A DNA stretch of 51,321 nt from Ruminococcus sp. (GTDB taxonomy: Bacteria > Bacillota > Clostridia > Oscillospirales > Acutalibacteraceae). The notes under the pieces are model-generated. The model made no database searches, was not told where the DNA came from, and was given only the letters and a program-made list of their open reading frames with translations. The stretch spans positions 1-51,321 of the forward strand of contig JAFQPG010000011.1 of the NCBI GenBank assembly GCA_017411835.1, given 5' to 3'. The stretch's first letter is position 1; every line of letters begins with the position of its first letter. The position numbers were made by a program, and so were the translations under genes. Of this stretch, positions 42,601 to 51,321 are shown in pieces.

Positions 42601-42616
42601 CATTAAAACACAAAAA

Positions 42617-42646
42617 AATCAGCACGATAATTAAACCGTGCTGAAT
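42617..42646 (-). terminator. Intrinsic terminator of lipoprotein gene
   Basis: CAGCACGG pairs with CGTGCTG around an AT loop and runs into ATTTTTTTG on the minus strand. The same stem (CAGCACG..CGTGCTG) follows the paralogous gene at 47340. Confidence 0.85.
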
Positions 42647-42650
42647 GTTT

Positions 42651-43187
42651 TTATTCAAATGCATCGACGAACTCGTCGCCCTGTATAACCATCTCGTCCT
42701 CAACATCTGTGTCTGAAATAGTTTCGCTGTCCTTTTTATCCTCCACCTTATCAGGAGTGATAACAACAATGACCTTGTCGCCCTTTTGCTCAACGATGAC
42801 TTTGTTCTCCGTTTCATCGCCGGAGAAATTCGGGTCAGCGTAGGTCTTAAGGTTTGCAACAAACATATTCTGGTCAACCGAGTCAGACATCTCAAAAATA
42901 TAGCTGATAAAAGGAATCGAATGGTCAGCAGACGAAATCATCACGCCGTTTTCAAAGCCGTTAATCGGCATATTAGAAAAGCCTTCAAGCAAGCCTTCAT
43001 CAACAGGCGCAGTAAGTAAAGAAAGGTCAGAATTTTCAACTACTGCATCGGCAATATCCTCCACAGATTCATCGGCGTTATCACGAAACTCCATCACTAC
43101 AGGACCGCCAATCTCGCCGTACTTGCCACAAGATGCAAGCGTAAACGCTAAAACCATGCAAAGAAGCAGAGCAATTATTTTTTTCAT
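42651..43187 (-). CDS. Uncharacterised lipoprotein, paralogue of 47340-47861 (178 aa)
   Basis: A lipoprotein signal ends in LASC; the mature protein is acidic. Recognisable segments are EFRDNADESVEDIADAVVEN, PVDEGLLEGFSNMPINGFEN and KVIVEQKGDKVIVVITPD, ending GDEFVDAFE. All of these have counterparts in the protein at 47340-47861, so the two are paralogues. I do not recognise the family. It would be anchored on the outer face of the membrane. The ATG at 43187 follows AAAGGAG; an upstream in-frame start is less likely. The gene comes about 30 nt after the DUF74 gene. Confidence 0.85.
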   Translation of the reverse strand: MKKIIALLLCMVLAFTLASCGKYGEIGGPVVMEFRDNADESVEDIADAVVENSDLSLLTAPVDEGLLEGFSNMPINGFENGVMISSADHSIPFISYIFEMSDSVDQNMFVANLKTYADPNFSGDETENKVIVEQKGDKVIVVITPDKVEDKKDSETISDTDVEDEMVIQGDEFVDAFE

Positions 43188-43217
43188 ATTAAACTCCTTT
43201 AACAAACGTTTATTTCT

Positions 43218-45556: not shown

Positions 45557-46363
45557 TTACTTGCGCTTTTTATATACATACAGCACAAACTCGACATCGG
45601 TTTTCAAGCGGTCTAACTTTTCAAGCTTTTGCTTACCGTCAGACGGTGTGTGGTAGTAGTAAGGTGTCATCTGAAACAATGCGCTTATTTCTTCTTTAGA
45701 ATTAAGAACGATAGTATCTTTAACTTTTATTTTCTCTACGAGAATTAAATCGCCTGCATCGGGTGGGTTTTCATCGTTTTTGTACGGGGTGTCGTACAAC
45801 ACCTCTTTTAGCGAGTACAGGTGGTTTTCGCCTGCTACGGCGGTGACGATATACGCGTCGTTTTTCAGCACGCGTGAAAATTCGCTTGCGTGAAACGGTG
45901 CAAAAAGGTGGAACGCAAAGTCAACCGCATTATTCTTTAAAGGAATATTAGCGATATTTGCGACGAAAAAGGTAGCGTCGCTTTTTCTTTTTGACGCAAG
46001 TCGCACCATATTTTTTGACAAATCAAAGCCGTAGAATCTGCGGTTTAAAGCTTTAGTCAAAAAGTGCAGGTAGTATCCCTCGCCACAGCAGATATCAAGC
46101 ACGTTGTCGCCGTCTTTACTGTACTTATTCGCACAAGATAAAACCGCATTTGCAAGTACATTAAAATAGCCTTTGTTTAAAAAATCTCGTCGAGCAACAG
46201 CCATCTCTTTGTTATCGCCCGTGCTGTCCCCCGATTTGTTTTTCGAGTTTAAATTCACGTAGCCTTCTTTTGCGATATCAAAACAGTGGTTGTTTGCGCA
46301 TTTATATATTCTGTTTTCTCTTTTTAATTCCTGCTTGCATACAGGACAGCTTAAAATTCCCAT
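45557..46363 (-). CDS. rlmA: 23S rRNA (guanine) methyltransferase, RlmA family (268 aa)
   Basis: The N-terminal zinc site is CPVCKQELKRENRIYKCANN with the following HCFDIAKEGYVNL, a fingerprint of RlmA. The methyltransferase domain has VLDICCGEGYYL (SAM site), YGFDLSKNMVRLA and HLFAPFHASEFSRVLK. RlmA enzymes methylate N1 of G745 or G748 in helix 35 of 23S rRNA; the Gram-positive type (RlmA-II) can affect tylosin-class macrolide susceptibility. Which base is modified cannot be told from the sequence. Confidence 0.92.
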   Translation of the reverse strand: MGILSCPVCKQELKRENRIYKCANNHCFDIAKEGYVNLNSKNKSGDSTGDNKEMAVARRDFLNKGYFNVLANAVLSCANKYSKDGDNVLDICCGEGYYLHFLTKALNRRFYGFDLSKNMVRLASKRKSDATFFVANIANIPLKNNAVDFAFHLFAPFHASEFSRVLKNDAYIVTAVAGENHLYSLKEVLYDTPYKNDENPPDAGDLILVEKIKVKDTIVLNSKEEISALFQMTPYYYHTPSDGKQKLEKLDRLKTDVEFVLYVYKKRK

Positions 46364-47280: not shown

Positions 47281-47307
47281 ACTCAACCTCCTTTTTAAGT
47301 ATAGAAA

Positions 47308-47336
47308 AATCAGCACGATAAAAACCGTGCTGAAAT
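47308..47336 (-). terminator. Intrinsic terminator of second lipoprotein gene
   Basis: TTCAGCACGG pairs with CGTGCTGA on the minus strand, followed by TTTTTC. The stem is the same as that after the paralogous gene at 42651. Confidence 0.82.
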
Positions 47337-47339
47337 ATA

Positions 47340-47861
47340 TTATTCAAATGTGTCTACAAACTCGTCGCCGTAAACAGGCACTTCGTCTTCAACATCAGAT
47401 TCTGCATCTTCAAAGCTCTCAGGTGACATAATGACTACGACCTTATCGCCTTTGCTCTCAACCACGAGCTCGTCAGCCTCTGTGCAGATGTTCCATCTAA
47501 GGTCAGCGTTGTCATTAAGTGTCTTAACAAAAGCGTCTGCATCTGTGCCGCTTGAGAGTGTAAATACATAGCCGATGAACGGAATCGTACCGATAGCAGG
47601 GCCGAACATAACGCCCTCGGAAAAGCCGGTAATTTCTTCATTTCCAAAGCCGTTTAAAAGTCCTTCTTCAACCGGCATAGTCATACCCATAAAAGGGATA
47701 GACTCGTCGTTAATCATCAAATCAGCAATCTCCTGCGCAGATTTATCGGCGTTTTTTTCAAACACGTCCAAAAGCCCGCTCGCCACAGTAGAGCTACCGC
47801 CACAAGACGCAAGCGCCATGACAAGAACCACGCAGATTAATAAAGTAATTAATCTTTTCAT
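47340..47861 (-). CDS. Uncharacterised lipoprotein, paralogue of 42651-43187 (173 aa)
   Basis: A lipobox LASC precedes an acidic mature protein: DVFEKNADKSAQEIADLMIN, VEEGLLNGFGNEEITGFSEG, ELVVESKGDKVVVIMSPE and the end GDEFVDTFE. Each segment has a match in the lipoprotein at 42651-43187, and the downstream terminators also match, so the copies arose by duplication of gene plus terminator. The function is unknown. Confidence 0.85.
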   Translation of the reverse strand: MKRLITLLICVVLVMALASCGGSSTVASGLLDVFEKNADKSAQEIADLMINDESIPFMGMTMPVEEGLLNGFGNEEITGFSEGVMFGPAIGTIPFIGYVFTLSSGTDADAFVKTLNDNADLRWNICTEADELVVESKGDKVVVIMSPESFEDAESDVEDEVPVYGDEFVDTFE

Positions 47862-47933
47862 ATCATTACCTCCTTCATACCATTTTATTATACTTGTTTA
47901 TACGCTCAATTACAATAGCATAATAAACCAAAT

Positions 47934-48011
47934 AAAAAATAAAAGCCCCGCAGAAATGCGGAGCTGTGGCGCGCTTGAAGGAATTCGAATCCCCGACCTT
48001 TCGCTTAGGAG
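47934..48011 (-). repeat. 78-bp direct repeat 1: tRNA-Arg(CCU) 3' half plus terminator (att-like)
   Basis: On the minus strand this reads as the 3' half of a tRNA: anticodon loop CTCCTAA, 3' anticodon stem GCGAA, T-arm GGGGA-TTCGAAT-TCCTT, acceptor strand CAAGCGC, discriminator G and an encoded CCA (tRNA part 47967-48011). A terminator follows (CTCCGCA/TGCGGGG then CTTTT, 47941-47965). The 5' half of the tRNA is absent. The same 78 bases occur at 50861-50938 without a mismatch. The terminator may also end the cassette transcript coming from 48204. Confidence 0.9.
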
Positions 48012-48097
48012 ATACCGAGGGAAATAGCTTTCTTATCACTTATAATGCCTAATAATTCCCTGCTGTCAGGGGATTTTTAAGGTTAAGGTGTTATCTT

Positions 48098-48152
48098 GTG
48101 TTACGTCGTTACTGCTGATTTGATGCTGTTTTAACTTATTTGATTAGCAAGG
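48098..48152. other. Conserved arm motifs beside att-like repeat 1
   Basis: GTGTTACG (48098-48105), TTACTGCTGAT (48109-48119) and ATTAGCAAGG (48143-48152) recur beside repeat 2. The distance from the end of the tRNA fragment to GTGTTACG is 87 nt in both copies. These look like arm-type recombinase sites; 48012-48203 holds nothing else I can identify. Confidence 0.6.
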
Positions 48153-48203
48153 ACGATTGAGTTGGGGTAGAGGTGATATGTTTAATACATACCTTTAAGT
48201 GAC

Positions 48204-49907
48204 TTATAATCTTATCAAGTCATTTGTATCACTTTCCATTTGTGCTACATTGAGTTTTCCAGATGGTGCAACAGGGAGTGCCGTATCATAAAGTTTAATA
48301 AGTGTCGGCACGTGATTAGCAGGAAGCTTGCTTTCGCAATGTTCTTTTATAGCATTTAATGTTGCATTCTTATCTGCGTCATCAATGAGCACAATATGGG
48401 CAACATGAGTCTTTTTATTATCATTTTTAGACATAACTACCTTGCATTGTCTGACCTGTTCAACAGCCAAGATAGCACGCTCAATATCAAAGAGATAGAT
48501 TGTTTCGTTAGCCTCGTTTTTATAGGACGAACTGATGCGACCATCTACATACACATTACCATCCTCAGCGACATAACCCATATCTCCCGTGCAAGCCCAA
48601 ACATTTCTGTTCTTATCGGTGAAGAAAAAGTCATTGGTTGCTTGTTTGTTTTTATAATATCCTAACATTTTGCACGGAGAACAAACACGAATCTCGCCAC
48701 GTTCCCCATAACGCAACTCCTCGTTTGTTTCTGCATTAAATGCAGAAACTACAACATGCGGCGTGGGGATGCCCGCCGAGCCGATAGTATTGTATCGCAC
48801 ACTGGCAGCAGTCACAATGCTACCCAGTTCACACATTCCATATCCTTTTTGCAAAGGGATGTTATTACCGTTGTCAGCCAACCATTTGTTGAACCTTTTT
48901 TCTGCCTGCGGTGTTACATATTCACCGCCGATTGCCAAACACTTAAAGTGCTTATATGACGGATGATTATATTGTTGATAATATAAATAATCAACAAGAC
49001 CCGTAGCAGTAATCATATAGTTAGGTTTAAATTTAGCAATATGTTTACTAAATAAGGACAAGTCGTACAAAGGTTCCAAAATAGCAACTAAACCATAGTA
49101 AAGCGATGTTAGCAGTGTTGCTACCAAGCCGGTGGAAAACCATAACGGAATCTGCACAAAGTATCTGTCTTGGCGTTTCATTTCCACAAACACGCTTTTG
49201 GCATCTACAAGTAATGTTAAAACACCATCATTTGTCAACTGGATGCCTTTTGATTGACCGGTTGTACCCGACGAATAAACCATCAAGGCGGGCTTGTTGG
49301 GTTCATTAGAAGGAACTTTAACTCCTACGCAGTTGTTGTTTTTAATAAAATTATCCCAAGTAATTGTACCTTCTATAGTCTTAACTTTTTTAATAGTCTT
49401 GACTACTGCACCTAACGAGTTGACCGCAGAACAAGAAATGATTGTTTCAATTTTTGTTTTTGGCAGAATATTTTTAATTCTCCCATAAAGTTCATTCGCA
49501 ACAAACAGTAGTTTAGCTTCAGTTTCGTTAATACGGTTTAACAATTGTTGCTCGTCAAACAAAGGGTTAAGCAATACAGCGTTTGCACCAATTTTGTTAA
49601 GCGCTAAGATCGCATATACCGTTTCAGGCAAAGCAGGCATACAAATTGCAACATTATCGCCGTTTACAACGCCATAAGAAGCCAGAGCTATTGCAGTACG
49701 ATCAATTTGAGAAAACAGTTTTTTGTATGTAATTTTCTTGCCAAAAAACAATAATGCAGTTTGATTCGTAAAATGCAAATTGTTCTCATAAATCTTTTGA
49801 TAGATACTGCACTTTGGGGTTTCCGCATTGATTTCTTCCTCGGTGTAATATTTCAACCAAGGCTTATCGATTGACGGATAACCCGTTAGTTTCTTTTCTG
49901 TAGGCAT
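48204..49907 (-). CDS. AMP-dependent acyl-CoA synthetase/ligase family protein (567 aa)
   Basis: A full adenylate-forming enzyme: the phosphate loop YSSGTTGQSKGIQLT (about 211-225), YGMCELGSIV, WACTGDMGYVAEDGNVYVDGR and the C-terminal lysine in VAPSGKLNVAQ. It activates a carboxylate with ATP and probably loads CoA or a carrier protein. Its start overlaps the preceding membrane-protein gene by 22 nt and follows GGAGGA, so the two form one operon. The pair is enclosed by the tRNA-Arg repeats. The sequence after the phosphate loop is closest in style to class I adenylate-forming enzymes of gut Clostridia; the acyl substrate is not known. Confidence 0.9.
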   Translation of the reverse strand: MPTEKKLTGYPSIDKPWLKYYTEEEINAETPKCSIYQKIYENNLHFTNQTALLFFGKKITYKKLFSQIDRTAIALASYGVVNGDNVAICMPALPETVYAILALNKIGANAVLLNPLFDEQQLLNRINETEAKLLFVANELYGRIKNILPKTKIETIISCSAVNSLGAVVKTIKKVKTIEGTITWDNFIKNNNCVGVKVPSNEPNKPALMVYSSGTTGQSKGIQLTNDGVLTLLVDAKSVFVEMKRQDRYFVQIPLWFSTGLVATLLTSLYYGLVAILEPLYDLSLFSKHIAKFKPNYMITATGLVDYLYYQQYNHPSYKHFKCLAIGGEYVTPQAEKRFNKWLADNGNNIPLQKGYGMCELGSIVTAASVRYNTIGSAGIPTPHVVVSAFNAETNEELRYGERGEIRVCSPCKMLGYYKNKQATNDFFFTDKNRNVWACTGDMGYVAEDGNVYVDGRISSSYKNEANETIYLFDIERAILAVEQVRQCKVVMSKNDNKKTHVAHIVLIDDADKNATLNAIKEHCESKLPANHVPTLIKLYDTALPVAPSGKLNVAQMESDTNDLIRL

Positions 49908-50575
49908 TGTTTTTTGTCCTCCAATTTTTTAATAAGATTATTGCTGTCTTTATCATACATAGGTGGTTTCACATTTTCCTTAATTTCCATATGATTGACC
50001 CATTTCTGGTAAATCTGTATACATCCTTTATAAAAGTCGGGATATTCCAGAAGTTCTATTTCTTGAACTACAGGATTGTTCATAGCAATAAAATAACGAT
50101 ATGACATTAGGTCGTCGATCATGTCGATGTGCAAAACTTTGTTTTTTACTAATGCAGCGACCCCCTCCAAATGCACAAGGTAATTTACAAGGTGTTGCCG
50201 ATTGCGGTTTTCAAGATCATACTTTTCACGGAACGCCTTAAGGTATTCCTCAGTAACCTCACCTTTACGATATTTGTTGTAGAACTTCTCAAGTTCCCAC
50301 TCAATTTCTGACATTTTATCGTTGCAAACAAATTGCTCATTTAGATCGGTGATAAACTGTGCCTCGTTAAGTAACTTGTTTTCGTTGTACTCTAACCAAA
50401 AAGCAACAGCGGTAATAATGGCAATAGTTGTTGCGAAAACTTCCGTGAGCCATTCCCAATCACAAAAGTTTTGACCGCATAAATAGATAATAGCAAGTAG
50501 TACCATTATGAATATGTACCAAAACTTACGAACACCGTTTCGTTCTCTTCTTTGAACATTTCTCTTTTTAGACAT
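49886..50575 (-). CDS. Two-helix membrane protein, cargo of tRNA-bounded segment (229 aa)
   Basis: A basic N-terminus (MSKKRNVQRRERNGVRKF) is followed by two membrane helices (about 18-35 and 43-60) and a long charged, mostly helical cytoplasmic part with many E, K, Y and N. This is the layout of DUF4760-like proteins, but I cannot confirm the family. The ATG at 50575 is preferred over one 12 nt upstream because GGGGG lies just before it. A terminator-like hairpin ends about 10 nt upstream of the ribosome binding site. It is co-transcribed with the AMP-ligase and probably works with it. Confidence 0.75.
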   Translation of the reverse strand: MSKKRNVQRRERNGVRKFWYIFIMVLLAIIYLCGQNFCDWEWLTEVFATTIAIITAVAFWLEYNENKLLNEAQFITDLNEQFVCNDKMSEIEWELEKFYNKYRKGEVTEEYLKAFREKYDLENRNRQHLVNYLVHLEGVAALVKNKVLHIDMIDDLMSYRYFIAMNNPVVQEIELLEYPDFYKGCIQIYQKWVNHMEIKENVKPPMYDKDSNNLIKKLEDKKQCLQKRN

Positions 50576-50588
50576 ATTTGCCCCCATA

Positions 50589-50626
50589 AAATAAAAAGTG
50601 CGGCTACCGAAGTAACCGCACAAAAA
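50589..50626 (-). terminator. Terminator-like hairpin in leader of membrane-protein gene
   Basis: On the minus strand GTGCGGTTAC and GTAGCCGCAC pair over a TTCG loop and run into TTTTTATTTTATGGGGG, so the terminator stops just before the ribosome binding site of the gene at 50575. Upstream (50627-50860) I see no convincing gene. It is either an attenuator or the terminator of something now lost. Confidence 0.7.
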
Positions 50627-50860
50627 ACGCAAACTCCGATAGTCGCCAAACTAACTCAATGTGAAATGGGGCGTAAACGCACACATACCTACATATCGTT
50701 GGAATCTGCATTTTTATCAAATTCAGAACGATACATAGGATGCACAAAAAGAGCATAATTATTCCACAAAAGAAAAATACACCCAATTTCACACGTATTC
50801 AGTTAGTTTGGCAATATCAGTTTAACACACTTTTTGTAGTAATACAATAAAATAAGGCTA

Positions 50861-50938
50861 AAAAAATAAAAGCCCCGCAGAAATGCGGAGCTGTGGCGCG
50901 CTTGAAGGAATTCGAATCCCCGACCTTTCGCTTAGGAG
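50861..50938 (-). repeat. 78-bp direct repeat 2: tRNA-Arg(CCU) 3' half plus terminator (att-like)
   Basis: Identical to 47934-48011, at a distance of 2927 bp. The tRNA part is 50894-50938. Again the bases beyond the anticodon do not form the 5' half of a tRNA, so this is a fragment and not a gene. The intact tRNA-Arg would be expected to the right of the window. Confidence 0.9.
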
Positions 50939-51024
50939 TGACCTCGAAACTCGGTTGTAGAGTCACTTCCTGTACCCGATAATCCCGTATTTTCAAGGCT
51001 TTTTCGCACTTTGAGTGTTAAGCT

Positions 51025-51090
51025 GTGTTACGGAATTACTGCTAATTTTACCCCGTTTTCTACCGTTTCATTAGATGGGAATTAGCAAGG
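51025..51090. other. Conserved arm motifs beside att-like repeat 2
   Basis: GTGTTACG (51025-51032), TTACTGCTAAT (51036-51046) and ATTAGCAAGG (51081-51090) match those beside repeat 1. The first two have identical spacing from the tRNA fragment; the third is shifted by 11 nt, one helical turn. The surrounding bases 50939-51202 differ from copy 1 and contain no gene. Confidence 0.6.
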
Positions 51091-51202
51091 GGTTCGGATT
51101 TAGGGAAACGGTTATATTCCCACAAGATACCTTTATTTAATCGCTTGTACCTCGGTCTGTTACCGAGTTTTATTTATTTTACTCACTTCGCTAAATAAGA
51201 AT

Positions 51203-51321
51203 TTACTTTGTCAGCATTTCGATTGCTTCTTCCTTGGTGGAAACAAAAAATACACTCTTGCCTTTATTGCTCTCATAGATAAAATCCTTGAGAGGTTTGC
51301 TGGTATAACGAGAGTAATCGC
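51203..51321 (-). CDS. C-terminal end of a DUF4180-like protein (partial)
   Basis: The last 39 codons of a gene that enters from the right. The visible peptide includes DYSRYTSKPLKDFIYESNKG and VFFVSTKEEAIEMLTK. The order YTSK, LKDFIYESN and FFV...EEA matches what I recall of the C-terminus of DUF4180 proteins, small proteins of unknown function common in Firmicutes. It begins the segment beyond the second att-like repeat. The start lies outside the window. Confidence 0.6.
   Translation of the reverse strand, partial: DYSRYTSKPLKDFIYESNKGKSVFFVSTKEEAIEMLTK

Follow-up and report, generated by a model that had tools for sequence, protein, structure and literature searches.

Two integrase-less cassettes probably inserted in succession into one tRNA-Arg(CCU) gene of Ruminococcus sp., with apparently related cassettes in gut clostridia

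The DNA analyzed here (the window, 51,321 nucleotides) is the whole of contig C6 of a Ruminococcus sp. assembly, and it ends 383 bp past the second of two exact 78-bp direct repeats. These repeats, described in a first-pass annotation of the same DNA, were confirmed at 47934-48011 and 50861-50938, both on the minus strand and 2,927 bp apart from start to start. Each is the 3' half of a tRNA-Arg(CCU), running from CTCCTAAG of the anticodon loop to the CCA and followed by a terminator hairpin, and 47 of its 78 nucleotides are identical to the intact tRNA-Arg(CCT) of a genome of the same genus (G014). The 5' tRNA half is absent from both copies, as had been stated, and ARAGORN called no complete tRNA in the window. 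The features of the region are:

47340..47861, minus strand: nearest chromosomal gene outside the array, judged lipoprotein-like by eye
47934..48011, minus strand: tRNA-Arg(CCU) 3' half and terminator, copy 1 (core CTCCTAAG at 48004-48011; CCA end at 47967)
48012..48203, minus strand: subtype A arm (CGTAACACAAGATAACAC ... GGTATCTCCTAAG) at the right end of cassette 1, with an approximate outer limit
48204..49907, minus strand: cassette 1 cargo, AMP-forming acyl-CoA-type ligase of 567 aa (Pfam PF00501, 1.3e-59)
49886..50572, minus strand: cassette 1 cargo, 228-aa protein (DUF4760, 1e-6; weak SLATT_1, 4.6e-4, under the cut-off)
50586..50842, minus strand: structured leader RNA preceding the first gene of the cargo, with a terminator hairpin at its end
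50861..50938, minus strand: tRNA-Arg(CCU) 3' half and terminator, copy 2 (core at 50931-50938)
50939..51190, minus strand: subtype B arm (CGTAACACAGCTTAACAC ... GGTCACTCCTAAG) at the right end of cassette 2, with an approximate outer limit
51203..51321, minus strand: cassette 2 cargo, last 38 codons of a DUF4180 protein, truncated where the contig stops (PF13788, 9.4e-10)

The gene content also agreed with the first reading, with an AMP-binding ligase and a DUF4760 protein between the repeats and a DUF4180 protein beyond the second. The top NCBIfam matches of the ligase were long-chain-fatty-acid--CoA ligases, those shown all being under their curated cut-offs, and the NCBIfam scan of the DUF4760 protein gave no match. 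The leader RNA is common to six ligase-bearing cassettes; no Rfam family exceeded its gathering score, and an L20 leader identity was rejected (18-23 bits, where the gathering score is 58.7; in the two alignments shown, the fit was good at the terminator end only). What had been overlooked is that approximately 200 bp directly upstream (in the tRNA sense) of each repeat are alike in both copies. We regard copy 1 as the 3' half that the host tRNA had originally, which now lies at the far end of the array, and copy 2 is both the left end of cassette 1 and the right boundary of cassette 2. Since the window is the entire contig, the remark that no integrase was in view could not be settled from it alone.

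The other side of the array appears to lie on contig C13 of the same assembly, and we infer that a single island extends between the ends of C13 and C6. Positions 400-439 of C13 are the native tRNA 5' half, ending at the core in the anticodon loop, and next to it, at 259-335, is a complete, different tRNA-Arg(CCT). Upstream of the single native tRNA-Arg(CCU) gene is what we take to be an oxaloacetate decarboxylase/pyruvate carboxylase-type subunit gene. Searching the assembly with a pattern gave three CTCCTAA-type 3' halves, one of them within a complete tRNA; this tRNA, inside the island on C13, was the sole complete tRNA-Arg(CCU) from that search, and another candidate for the intact gene (C17:100547) was rejected because it is a tRNA-Arg(TCT). 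An intact tRNA-Arg(CCU) at the far end had been anticipated, and a complete tRNA is indeed present there, but it is not the regenerated native gene. Judged from sequence, the native tRNA gene is interrupted, and its place has been taken by a complete foreign tRNA-Arg(CCU).

When the 5' flank on C13 and the 3' flank on C6 were joined, the result was the same sequence as the intact tRNA of G014. ARAGORN called a tRNA-Arg(CCT) on the joined flanks of 11 of 12 islands (11 mapped islands, with the window counted once and G177 left out, plus G011). In a control with 132 joins mismatched on purpose, it also called a tRNA in 37; thus, the call alone is weak, and identity to the G014 tRNA counts for more. 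A relative with an empty site, a comparison proposed in the first-pass annotation, was found (L033); there, the tRNA-Arg(CCU) is intact. Downstream of it is a homolog (60% identity) of the gene at 47340..47861, with one other small gene (178 aa) in between.

We then have the distribution of the arms. An arm-derived pattern had 31 exact matches in GTDB genome contigs, from gut Clostridia. Although the core letters were absent from this pattern, CTYCTAAG was found at a fixed distance in 30 of the 31 matches. The joint set, from which five of the 31 GTDB loci (L123, L137, L142, L146 and L147) were left out as duplicates of same-genus genomes, comprised 34 arms in 33 genomes, two of them the arms of the window; the arm of G010 was found with a model that included the core letters. 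The core lay at 93-96 nt in 33 of these arms, and the right end of G177 was without it. Over 94 nt, the 17 subtype B arms had an identity of 0.91 among themselves and the 16 subtype A arms one of 0.74 (ungapped), and the arm of cassette 2 is by eye the same sequence as that of G066 over the part present on the G066 contig. Many different tRNA-Arg 3' halves follow the core: 31 of 33 post-core 37-mers differ, with a mean identity of 0.50. Genus-wide searches gave clear arm matches (E<=1e-14) in 7 of 161 genomes, and weaker ones look like chance. That these ends belong to phages or plasmids was not supported, as the arm pattern had no exact match in IMG/VR viral contigs and the arm of cassette 2 had none in phage or plasmid collections. 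Sequence comparison points to related cassettes with similar ends and other cargo in many gut clostridia.

Twelve cassettes could be mapped, with sizes of 1,376-3,175 bp and one to three cargo genes each, including acyl-CoA-type ligases, a transporter, acetyltransferases and a CatA-like gene; CatA-like and ANT(6)-type genes are present in two of the loci. No intact integrase was found in their ORF lists; Pfam or NCBIfam scans covered most of the distinct cargo proteins, and the rest were judged by eye or by near-identity. The core CTYCTAAG is at both ends of 11 of the 12, G177 having no right core. The full-form left end (~390 bp) comprises a short leader with a hairpin, a whole tRNA-Arg(CCU) plus terminator, and a cluster of GCTAAT motifs. 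This cluster is absent from the first 420 bp of cassette 1, G168 and G176 and lies only at 545-756 in G162, so some cassettes may be fixed or use the right arm only. A whole other tRNA replaces the native one in G180, G185, G171 and G183 and at the C13 end. G176 and G011 fit a pattern in which the disrupted tRNA is restored and the displaced fragment is left behind, and the same probably holds for cassette 1.

Cargo was compared for 26 of the 34 arms, the other eight having less than 150 bp upstream, and none of the 12 cargo-sharing pairs had a downstream flank match at E<=1e-15. The G165 and G185 cassettes are 90% identical over 2,481 bp, with no flank match in up to 2.5 kb on either side. 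G168 and G172 are 99.7% identical over 2,577 bp and also share 96 bp upstream of the tRNA, all that the G172 contig has there, so only the downstream flanks are shown to differ in this pair. G176 and G177 share cargo at 99.7% against 85% for the upstream flank. The earlier proposal of successive insertions into one tRNA, with a small integrase-less cassette resulting from each, is supported by the mapped cassettes, the empty site and the cargo shared across unmatched downstream flanks, except that the far-end tRNA is foreign. A long array was not borne out: there are only two cassettes here and one tandem junction in Neglectibacter sp. X58.

In larger elements of G178, G161 and G164, a subtype B arm is immediately preceded by a tyrosine integrase; no integrase was found next to a subtype A arm, the type that cassette 1 has. 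Among eight genome loci with homologs of at least 61% identity to this integrase, seven have CTCCTAAG and a tRNA-Arg 3' half downstream, five within 1.5 kb and two more on longer stretches; the remaining one, G257, had no such core in the 11 kb read. None of 15 more distant homologs (L203-L217, 41-59% identity) had the core in up to 1.5 kb downstream. A close integrase, a truncated piece or a remnant is present in 5 of the 33 arm-bearing genomes, and some cassettes may thus be no more than reduced forms of elements with an integrase. Integrase loss by deletion, which the first-pass annotation had set against its own proposal, is a likely origin of some cassettes: the G183 cassette has a remnant (a 70% identical piece with a stop) and the larger G184 element a truncated copy (97%, N-terminus missing). 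The other 28 genomes had no close homolog, an absence that is uncertain because nearly all genomes are incomplete MAGs. The assembly of the window likewise had no close homolog (none at E<=1e-20), and the tyrosine recombinases of this genome were set aside as the cassette recombinase on this ground; two of their loci are near tRNA-Pro genes. Four phage-collection records contain relatives of the integrase (71, 67, 52 and 47% identity). Both records examined, unannotated human-fecal scaffolds labelled Bacteriophage sp., have CTCCTAAG and a tRNA-Arg 3' half, 702 and 803 bp after the integrase, and for this reason a phage-like helper may still be considered.

Based on these observations, two integrase-less cassettes were quite probably inserted successively into one native tRNA-Arg(CCU), most likely moved in trans by the integrases of larger elements that have the same arms. 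A tyrosine recombinase would join the 8-bp core in the anticodon loop of the host tRNA gene to that of the cassette end, and each cassette has a right arm of ~200 bp stopping exactly at the core and, in the full form, the ~390-bp left end. Cassette 1 would have entered first; with a left end whose 3' half is identical to that of the host, the tRNA would have stayed whole. Cassette 2 (subtype B, DUF4180 cargo) would have followed into the same core, and because its left end on C13 is of the full form, the native tRNA would stay split and be replaced by the foreign one. We infer the order of events, the identity of the recombinase, its action in trans and the route between cells.

The alternative that each cassette is an independently decayed ICE, IME or phage (a strict CIME), whose integrase and transfer genes were deleted and whose leftovers are stationary, appears unlikely. 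The integrase remnants, the missing GCTAAT clusters of cassette 1, G168 and G176 and the coreless right end of G177 would agree with it, and tandem CIMEs at tRNA genes are documented (PMC5704250). However, stationary leftovers would not be shared in the way seen for G165/G185, G168/G172 and G176/G177, where the same minimal cassettes recur at high identity with different tRNA 3' halves (none in G177) and unmatched downstream flanks, and the right ends reach the core at nearly equal distance in all arms but one. Spread of the shared ends through conserved tRNA and arm sequences by homologous recombination or natural transformation, without a recombinase once the first insertion had occurred, would have to deal with host 3' halves averaging 50% identity beyond the core and with tRNAs of quite different sequence split at one exact position; we regard it as improbable, although tRNA halves and arms offer some homology at both sides and G176 and G177 share their upstream locus as well as nearly identical cargo. 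An assembly or binning artefact, in which the 3' halves or the C13 tRNA came from another organism or from repeat collapse, could be suspected in a 20-contig assembly with two contigs ending inside the island, but both repeats are on one contig with unique sequence between them, the joined halves give the exact tRNA of a same-genus genome with the neighboring genes of that genome on either side, and the same architecture occurs within single contigs of other assemblies. We give it almost no weight.

Successive insertion of cassettes mobilized in trans shares features with several known systems, as described in the sources cited here. CIMEs (PMC5704250) are likewise integrase-less, att-bounded segments in tandem with related elements, formed by site-specific recombination at a gene end. 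The mapped cassettes have no integration or transfer genes, 11 of 12 retain attL and attR, and tandem junctions in G184 and the window would fit mobilization by accretion with a related element. In contrast with the decayed ICEs or IMEs described there, the present cassettes are 1.4-3.2 kb with similar ends and one to three cargo genes in many genomes, and several carry a whole replacement tRNA. As to derivation by decay, an integrase remnant was seen in the G183 cassette and a truncated integrase in the larger G184 element, and none in the other mapped cassettes. Dehalococcoides ssrA islands (PMC3146451) are also in tandem and delimited by 3'-end repeats of a tRNA-like gene, and 15 of them without an integration module were suggested to be perhaps cis-mobilizable; there, the site is a 20-bp tmRNA 3' end used by a CcrB-like serine recombinase, whereas here we find a tRNA-Arg(YCU) anticodon loop, a tyrosine integrase, ~200 bp arms and whole-tRNA replacement. 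Integron cassettes and CALINs (PMC11389934) are similarly recombinase-less and may be moved in trans by a tyrosine recombinase. Instead of attC and IntI, the present site is a core in a tRNA gene with arms on each cassette, no array longer than two was seen, and the linked integrase scored 37.7 bits against the integron-integrase model (cut-off 265). Tycheposons (PMC10872708) are tRNA-associated integrative elements with metabolic cargo and a tyrosine recombinase of their own, and at 4-200 kb differ from the mapped cassettes in both size and recombinase. The fGI-2 additive islands of Methylophilaceae have repeated tRNA-end fragments ahead of variable genes; their repeats are 20 bp, and conserved arms or tRNA replacement are not mentioned in that portion of the text (PMC10872708). 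Finally, compared with tRNA-targeted islands of the Islander type, the mapped cassettes have no tyrosine integrase of their own, unlike the G178, G161 and G164 elements, and a restored tRNA fits G176, G011 and presumably cassette 1 but not G180, G185, G171, G183 or the C13 end. Among the open-access matches listed, judged by title and start of abstract, no paper dealt with these cassettes or with whole-tRNA replacement in gut Clostridia.

A broader proposal, to which we give even chances, is an integron-like platform in gut Clostridia, in which the tRNA-Arg(CCU) gene would serve as both attachment site and replaceable part. Acting in trans, the tyrosine integrases of larger elements would insert and excise minimal cassettes that have dedicated ends, one of which holds a whole replacement tRNA, thereby spreading metabolic, transport and resistance genes across genera and exchanging the only AGG-decoding tRNA gene of the host. 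If confirmed, this would be a widespread gene-moving route among uncultured gut and rumen Clostridia, overlooked by integrase-based island finders such as Islander, which filters for an integrase gene (PMC4383910). It would also explain how single genes, including CatA-like and ANT(6)-type genes, travel between genera, and would provide a clear case of a mobile element that exchanges an entire tRNA gene of its host rather than repairing it.

The first-pass annotation had described two 78-bp 3' halves of tRNA-Arg(CCU) lying 2,927 bp apart in the same orientation, and both their coordinates and their identity were reproduced here. Read on the minus strand, each repeat starts at the anticodon-loop sequence CTCCTAAG, reaches the CCA end and also contains a terminator hairpin, and its tRNA 3' half is present letter for letter in the intact tRNA-Arg(CCT) of G014, a genome of the same genus. 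No complete tRNA was found in the window, which is all of contig C6 in an assembly of 20 contigs. The gene that lies upstream of this tRNA in relatives was found on another contig, C13, which ends 508 bp past that gene; there, the native tRNA is split and a foreign one stands in replacement.

Features of the split tRNA on contigs C6 and C13
47934-48011, minus: tRNA-Arg(CCU) 3' half, copy 1, 78 bp, identical to copy 2
50861-50938, minus: tRNA-Arg(CCU) 3' half, copy 2, 78 bp, same orientation as copy 1
C13:400-439: native tRNA 5' half, stopping after CTCCTAAG
C13, after the native 5' half: leader with hairpin, 64 nt
C13:259-335: complete, different tRNA-Arg(CCT)
C13, from the complete tRNA to the end of the contig: terminator, several GCTAAT motifs

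A pattern search of the assembly for CTCCTAA-type 3' halves gave three matches, namely the two window halves and the complete C13 tRNA, whose sequence is the same as that of the tRNA in G183. Thus, the island holds the sole complete tRNA-Arg(CCU) gene that turned up in the assembly; of the additional copies and intact gene envisaged in the first-pass annotation, the complete tRNA exists but is foreign, and no 3' half besides these three was matched. An empty site was found in G014, where the upstream gene and the intact tRNA-Arg(CCT) are followed, with no insertion, by a 178-aa gene and by genes resembling those beside the array in the window (the first 60% identical to its window counterpart). 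Joining the host 5' and 3' flanks of the window gave exactly the G014 tRNA sequence. The C13 and C6 ends would bound one island, in which the distal cassette would have been inserted first. A pair of diverged lipoprotein-like genes whose flanks are similar (42603-43190 and 47294-47863; blocks 71-85% identical) also lies beside the tRNA locus and is apparently an old duplication, and a minus-strand gene at 45557-46363 encodes an RlmA-like protein (Zn_ribbon_RlmA, 5.5e-16, plus a methyltransferase domain), of a family that includes rRNA methyltransferases.

The approximately 200 bp directly upstream (in tRNA sense) of each half, here called the right arm or simply the arm, are similar in both copies, and the shared blocks include CGTAACACA...TAACAC and TTGCTAAT; cassette 1, between the two halves, ends in arm subtype A and cassette 2, the next segment, in subtype B. 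Similarity thus continues past the tRNA, as would be expected for the attachment-site arms of a tyrosine recombinase. When GTDB genome contigs were searched with a 29-nt arm pattern that includes neither core nor tRNA letters, 31 stretches matched, many of them of ruminant origin; every record title names Clostridia, Oscillospiraceae, Ruminococcaceae, Ruminococcus or Neglectibacter. The pattern had no match in IMG/VR. The core, CTYCTAAG, stood at the expected distance in 30 of the 31. Based on a joint set of 34 arms in 33 genomes (GTDB stretches, the window and same-genus genomes, minus five duplicates), CTCCTAAG or CTTCTAAG was located 93-96 nt past the arm motif in 33 arms. A tRNA 3' half followed the core in 31 of these 33 by script expression and in one more by inspection (L125, no encoded CCA), and in the remaining arm, from Neglectibacter X58, the core was followed by the leader and complete tRNA of the next element. 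Of the 33 stretches of 37 nt that follow the core, 31 differ, with pairwise identity averaging 0.50, whereas mean identity over the 94 nt of arm before it was 0.91 for subtype B and 0.74 (ungapped) for subtype A. Therefore, many distinct tRNA-Arg genes carry similar ends attached at a single position. Four contigs (L126, L139, L143 and L146) stop within or right beside the arm, as expected if it is repeated within the sampled communities.

Both ends could be mapped for 12 cassettes, which measure 1,376-3,175 bp from core to core (the right core is missing in G177, whose cassette end was placed by the arm). The full-form cassettes have a common left part of ~390 bp and cassettes a common right part of ~150-275 bp, and the cargo between differs. 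These data show insertion at one anticodon-loop position by elements with conserved ends and differing cargo. All 12 lack an intact integrase, and G183 retains a remnant.

Cargo of cassettes in the window and the compared genomes
AMP-forming acyl-CoA-type ligases: window, G176, G177, G180 (family search); G011, G041, G074 (by eye)
EamA transporter and LysR-type regulator: G165, and G185 at 90% identity
GNAT: G170
Hexapeptide acetyltransferase: G183
Chloramphenicol acetyltransferase family: G171 (PF00302, 5.5e-64; NCBIfam CatA, 256.8 bits, just below the cut-off of 270)
23S_rRNA_IVP protein: G162, G176, G177
Sigma-70-like protein: G162
DUF2971 and HTH_3 proteins, plus a 92-aa protein without an assigned family: G168, and G172 at 99.7% identity

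How the tRNA is kept differs among islands. In G185, G180, G171 and G183, the host tRNA is interrupted at the core, after which come the leader and a complete tRNA-Arg(CCU) that differs in sequence; G165 has the same arrangement with an eroded host 5' half, and the C13 end of the window genome is also of this whole-tRNA replacement kind. On the other hand, cassette 1, G011 and G176 appear to show the classical arrangement, in which the element supplies a 3' half to the host 5' half. Between left and right copies there is no difference over 78 bp in the window or 81 bp in G011, terminator included; in G176, the thirteenth base differs. A complete tRNA lies at the left end in G162, G168, G170, G172 and G177 (by ARAGORN or reading), where the arrangement is less clear. 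When host 5' and 3' flanks were joined, ARAGORN called tRNA-Arg(CCT) in 11 of 12 islands (the exception being G165), but it also called a tRNA in 37 of 132 mismatched control joins and is thus permissive here.

In six ligase-bearing cassettes, a conserved leader RNA stands before either the ligase gene or the first of the cargo genes.

Copies of the leader RNA
Window 50586-50842, minus
L030:9940-10152
L135:1900-2115
L136:2993-3210
L140:2235-2436
L032:1-135

Its outer helix has compensatory changes in three of 39 predicted pairs (five sequences), a terminator hairpin is also present, and the window genome contains one copy of the leader's core motif. None of the three copies (of six) searched against Rfam scored above the gathering threshold. 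It is a candidate attenuator or riboswitch-like element.

Signs of movement were sought in the 26 of 34 arms with enough upstream sequence. Twelve pairs had cargo in common over at least 200 bp, and none of the twelve had a downstream match at E<=1e-15. In six of the pairs, both members come from the group formed by G161, G164 and G178, which bear the integrase, and G183, which bears the remnant. G165 and G185 are 90% identical across the whole cassette, with no match on either side in up to 2.5 kb of flank examined; in G168 and G172, which are 99.7% identical, the downstream sequence differs and 96 bp upstream are shared. Cargo identity for G176/G177 was 99.7%, versus 85% upstream, and the values were 88% over 316 bp for G011/G180 and 90% over 282 bp for G111/G166. 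Cassette 1 of the window and G074 were only 70% identical over 340 bp, a level that homology of the ligase genes alone may explain.

The first-pass annotation had raised the possibility, should the array continue, of a recombinase acting in trans. A tyrosine integrase lies directly upstream of the subtype B arm in G178 (PF00589; preceded by HTH_17 and PemK/MazF-type genes), G161 and G164, and homologs at E<=1e-40 occur in 19 of 296 genomes searched. CTCCTAAG and a tRNA-Arg 3' half were found downstream in seven of the eight integrase loci at >=61% identity (five within 1.5 kb, two beyond or near 1.5 kb), in none of 15 more distant loci within up to 1.5 kb, and in both human-fecal records examined. 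Close homologs are absent from 28 of the 33 arm-bearing genomes, two of which have a distant one (G172, 48%; G166, 26%); the others are G178, G161 and G164 (contig-cut), G184 with a truncated copy and G183 with the remnant. Solved structures included only distant relatives (best E 4.5e-10), and next to subtype A arms no integrase was detected. The G178-type integrase is the likely recombinase of the cassettes and would act on them in trans. One subtype B element of ~22 kb, in Neglectibacter sp. X58 (NZ_QWEO01000012.1; L177/L218/L219), has a tRNA-Arg(CCT) and a ParA-like gene at one end and the arm at the other, and contains an N-terminally truncated integrase and an EF-G-type GTPase (PF00009 plus EFG domains), presumably a ribosomal-protection (resistance) protein. 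At its end lies a gene of the ANT(6) family, which scored above the NCBIfam cut-off, and the right end of the element adjoins the leader and tRNA of the next one. Tyrosine recombinases near tRNA-Pro(TGG) and tRNA-Pro(CGG) genes on two other contigs of the window genome (C8:5341-7945 and C9:2-1462; L081, L082) suggest other tRNA-targeted elements there.

Integrase-less elements bounded by attachment sites are already known, as in CIMEs (PMC5704250) and ssrA islands (PMC3146451). The general rule, as stated in the Islander paper, is that the disrupted gene is restored by island sequences (PMC4383910), whereas several cassettes here replace the host tRNA by a whole foreign one. Among the matches listed in the open-access literature searched, we found neither such whole-tRNA replacement nor a family of minimal cassettes that spans genera and has standard ends. 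The cassettes would also pass from cell to cell. Since the split halves stand at the island's outer ends, precise loss of the island would restore the native tRNA.
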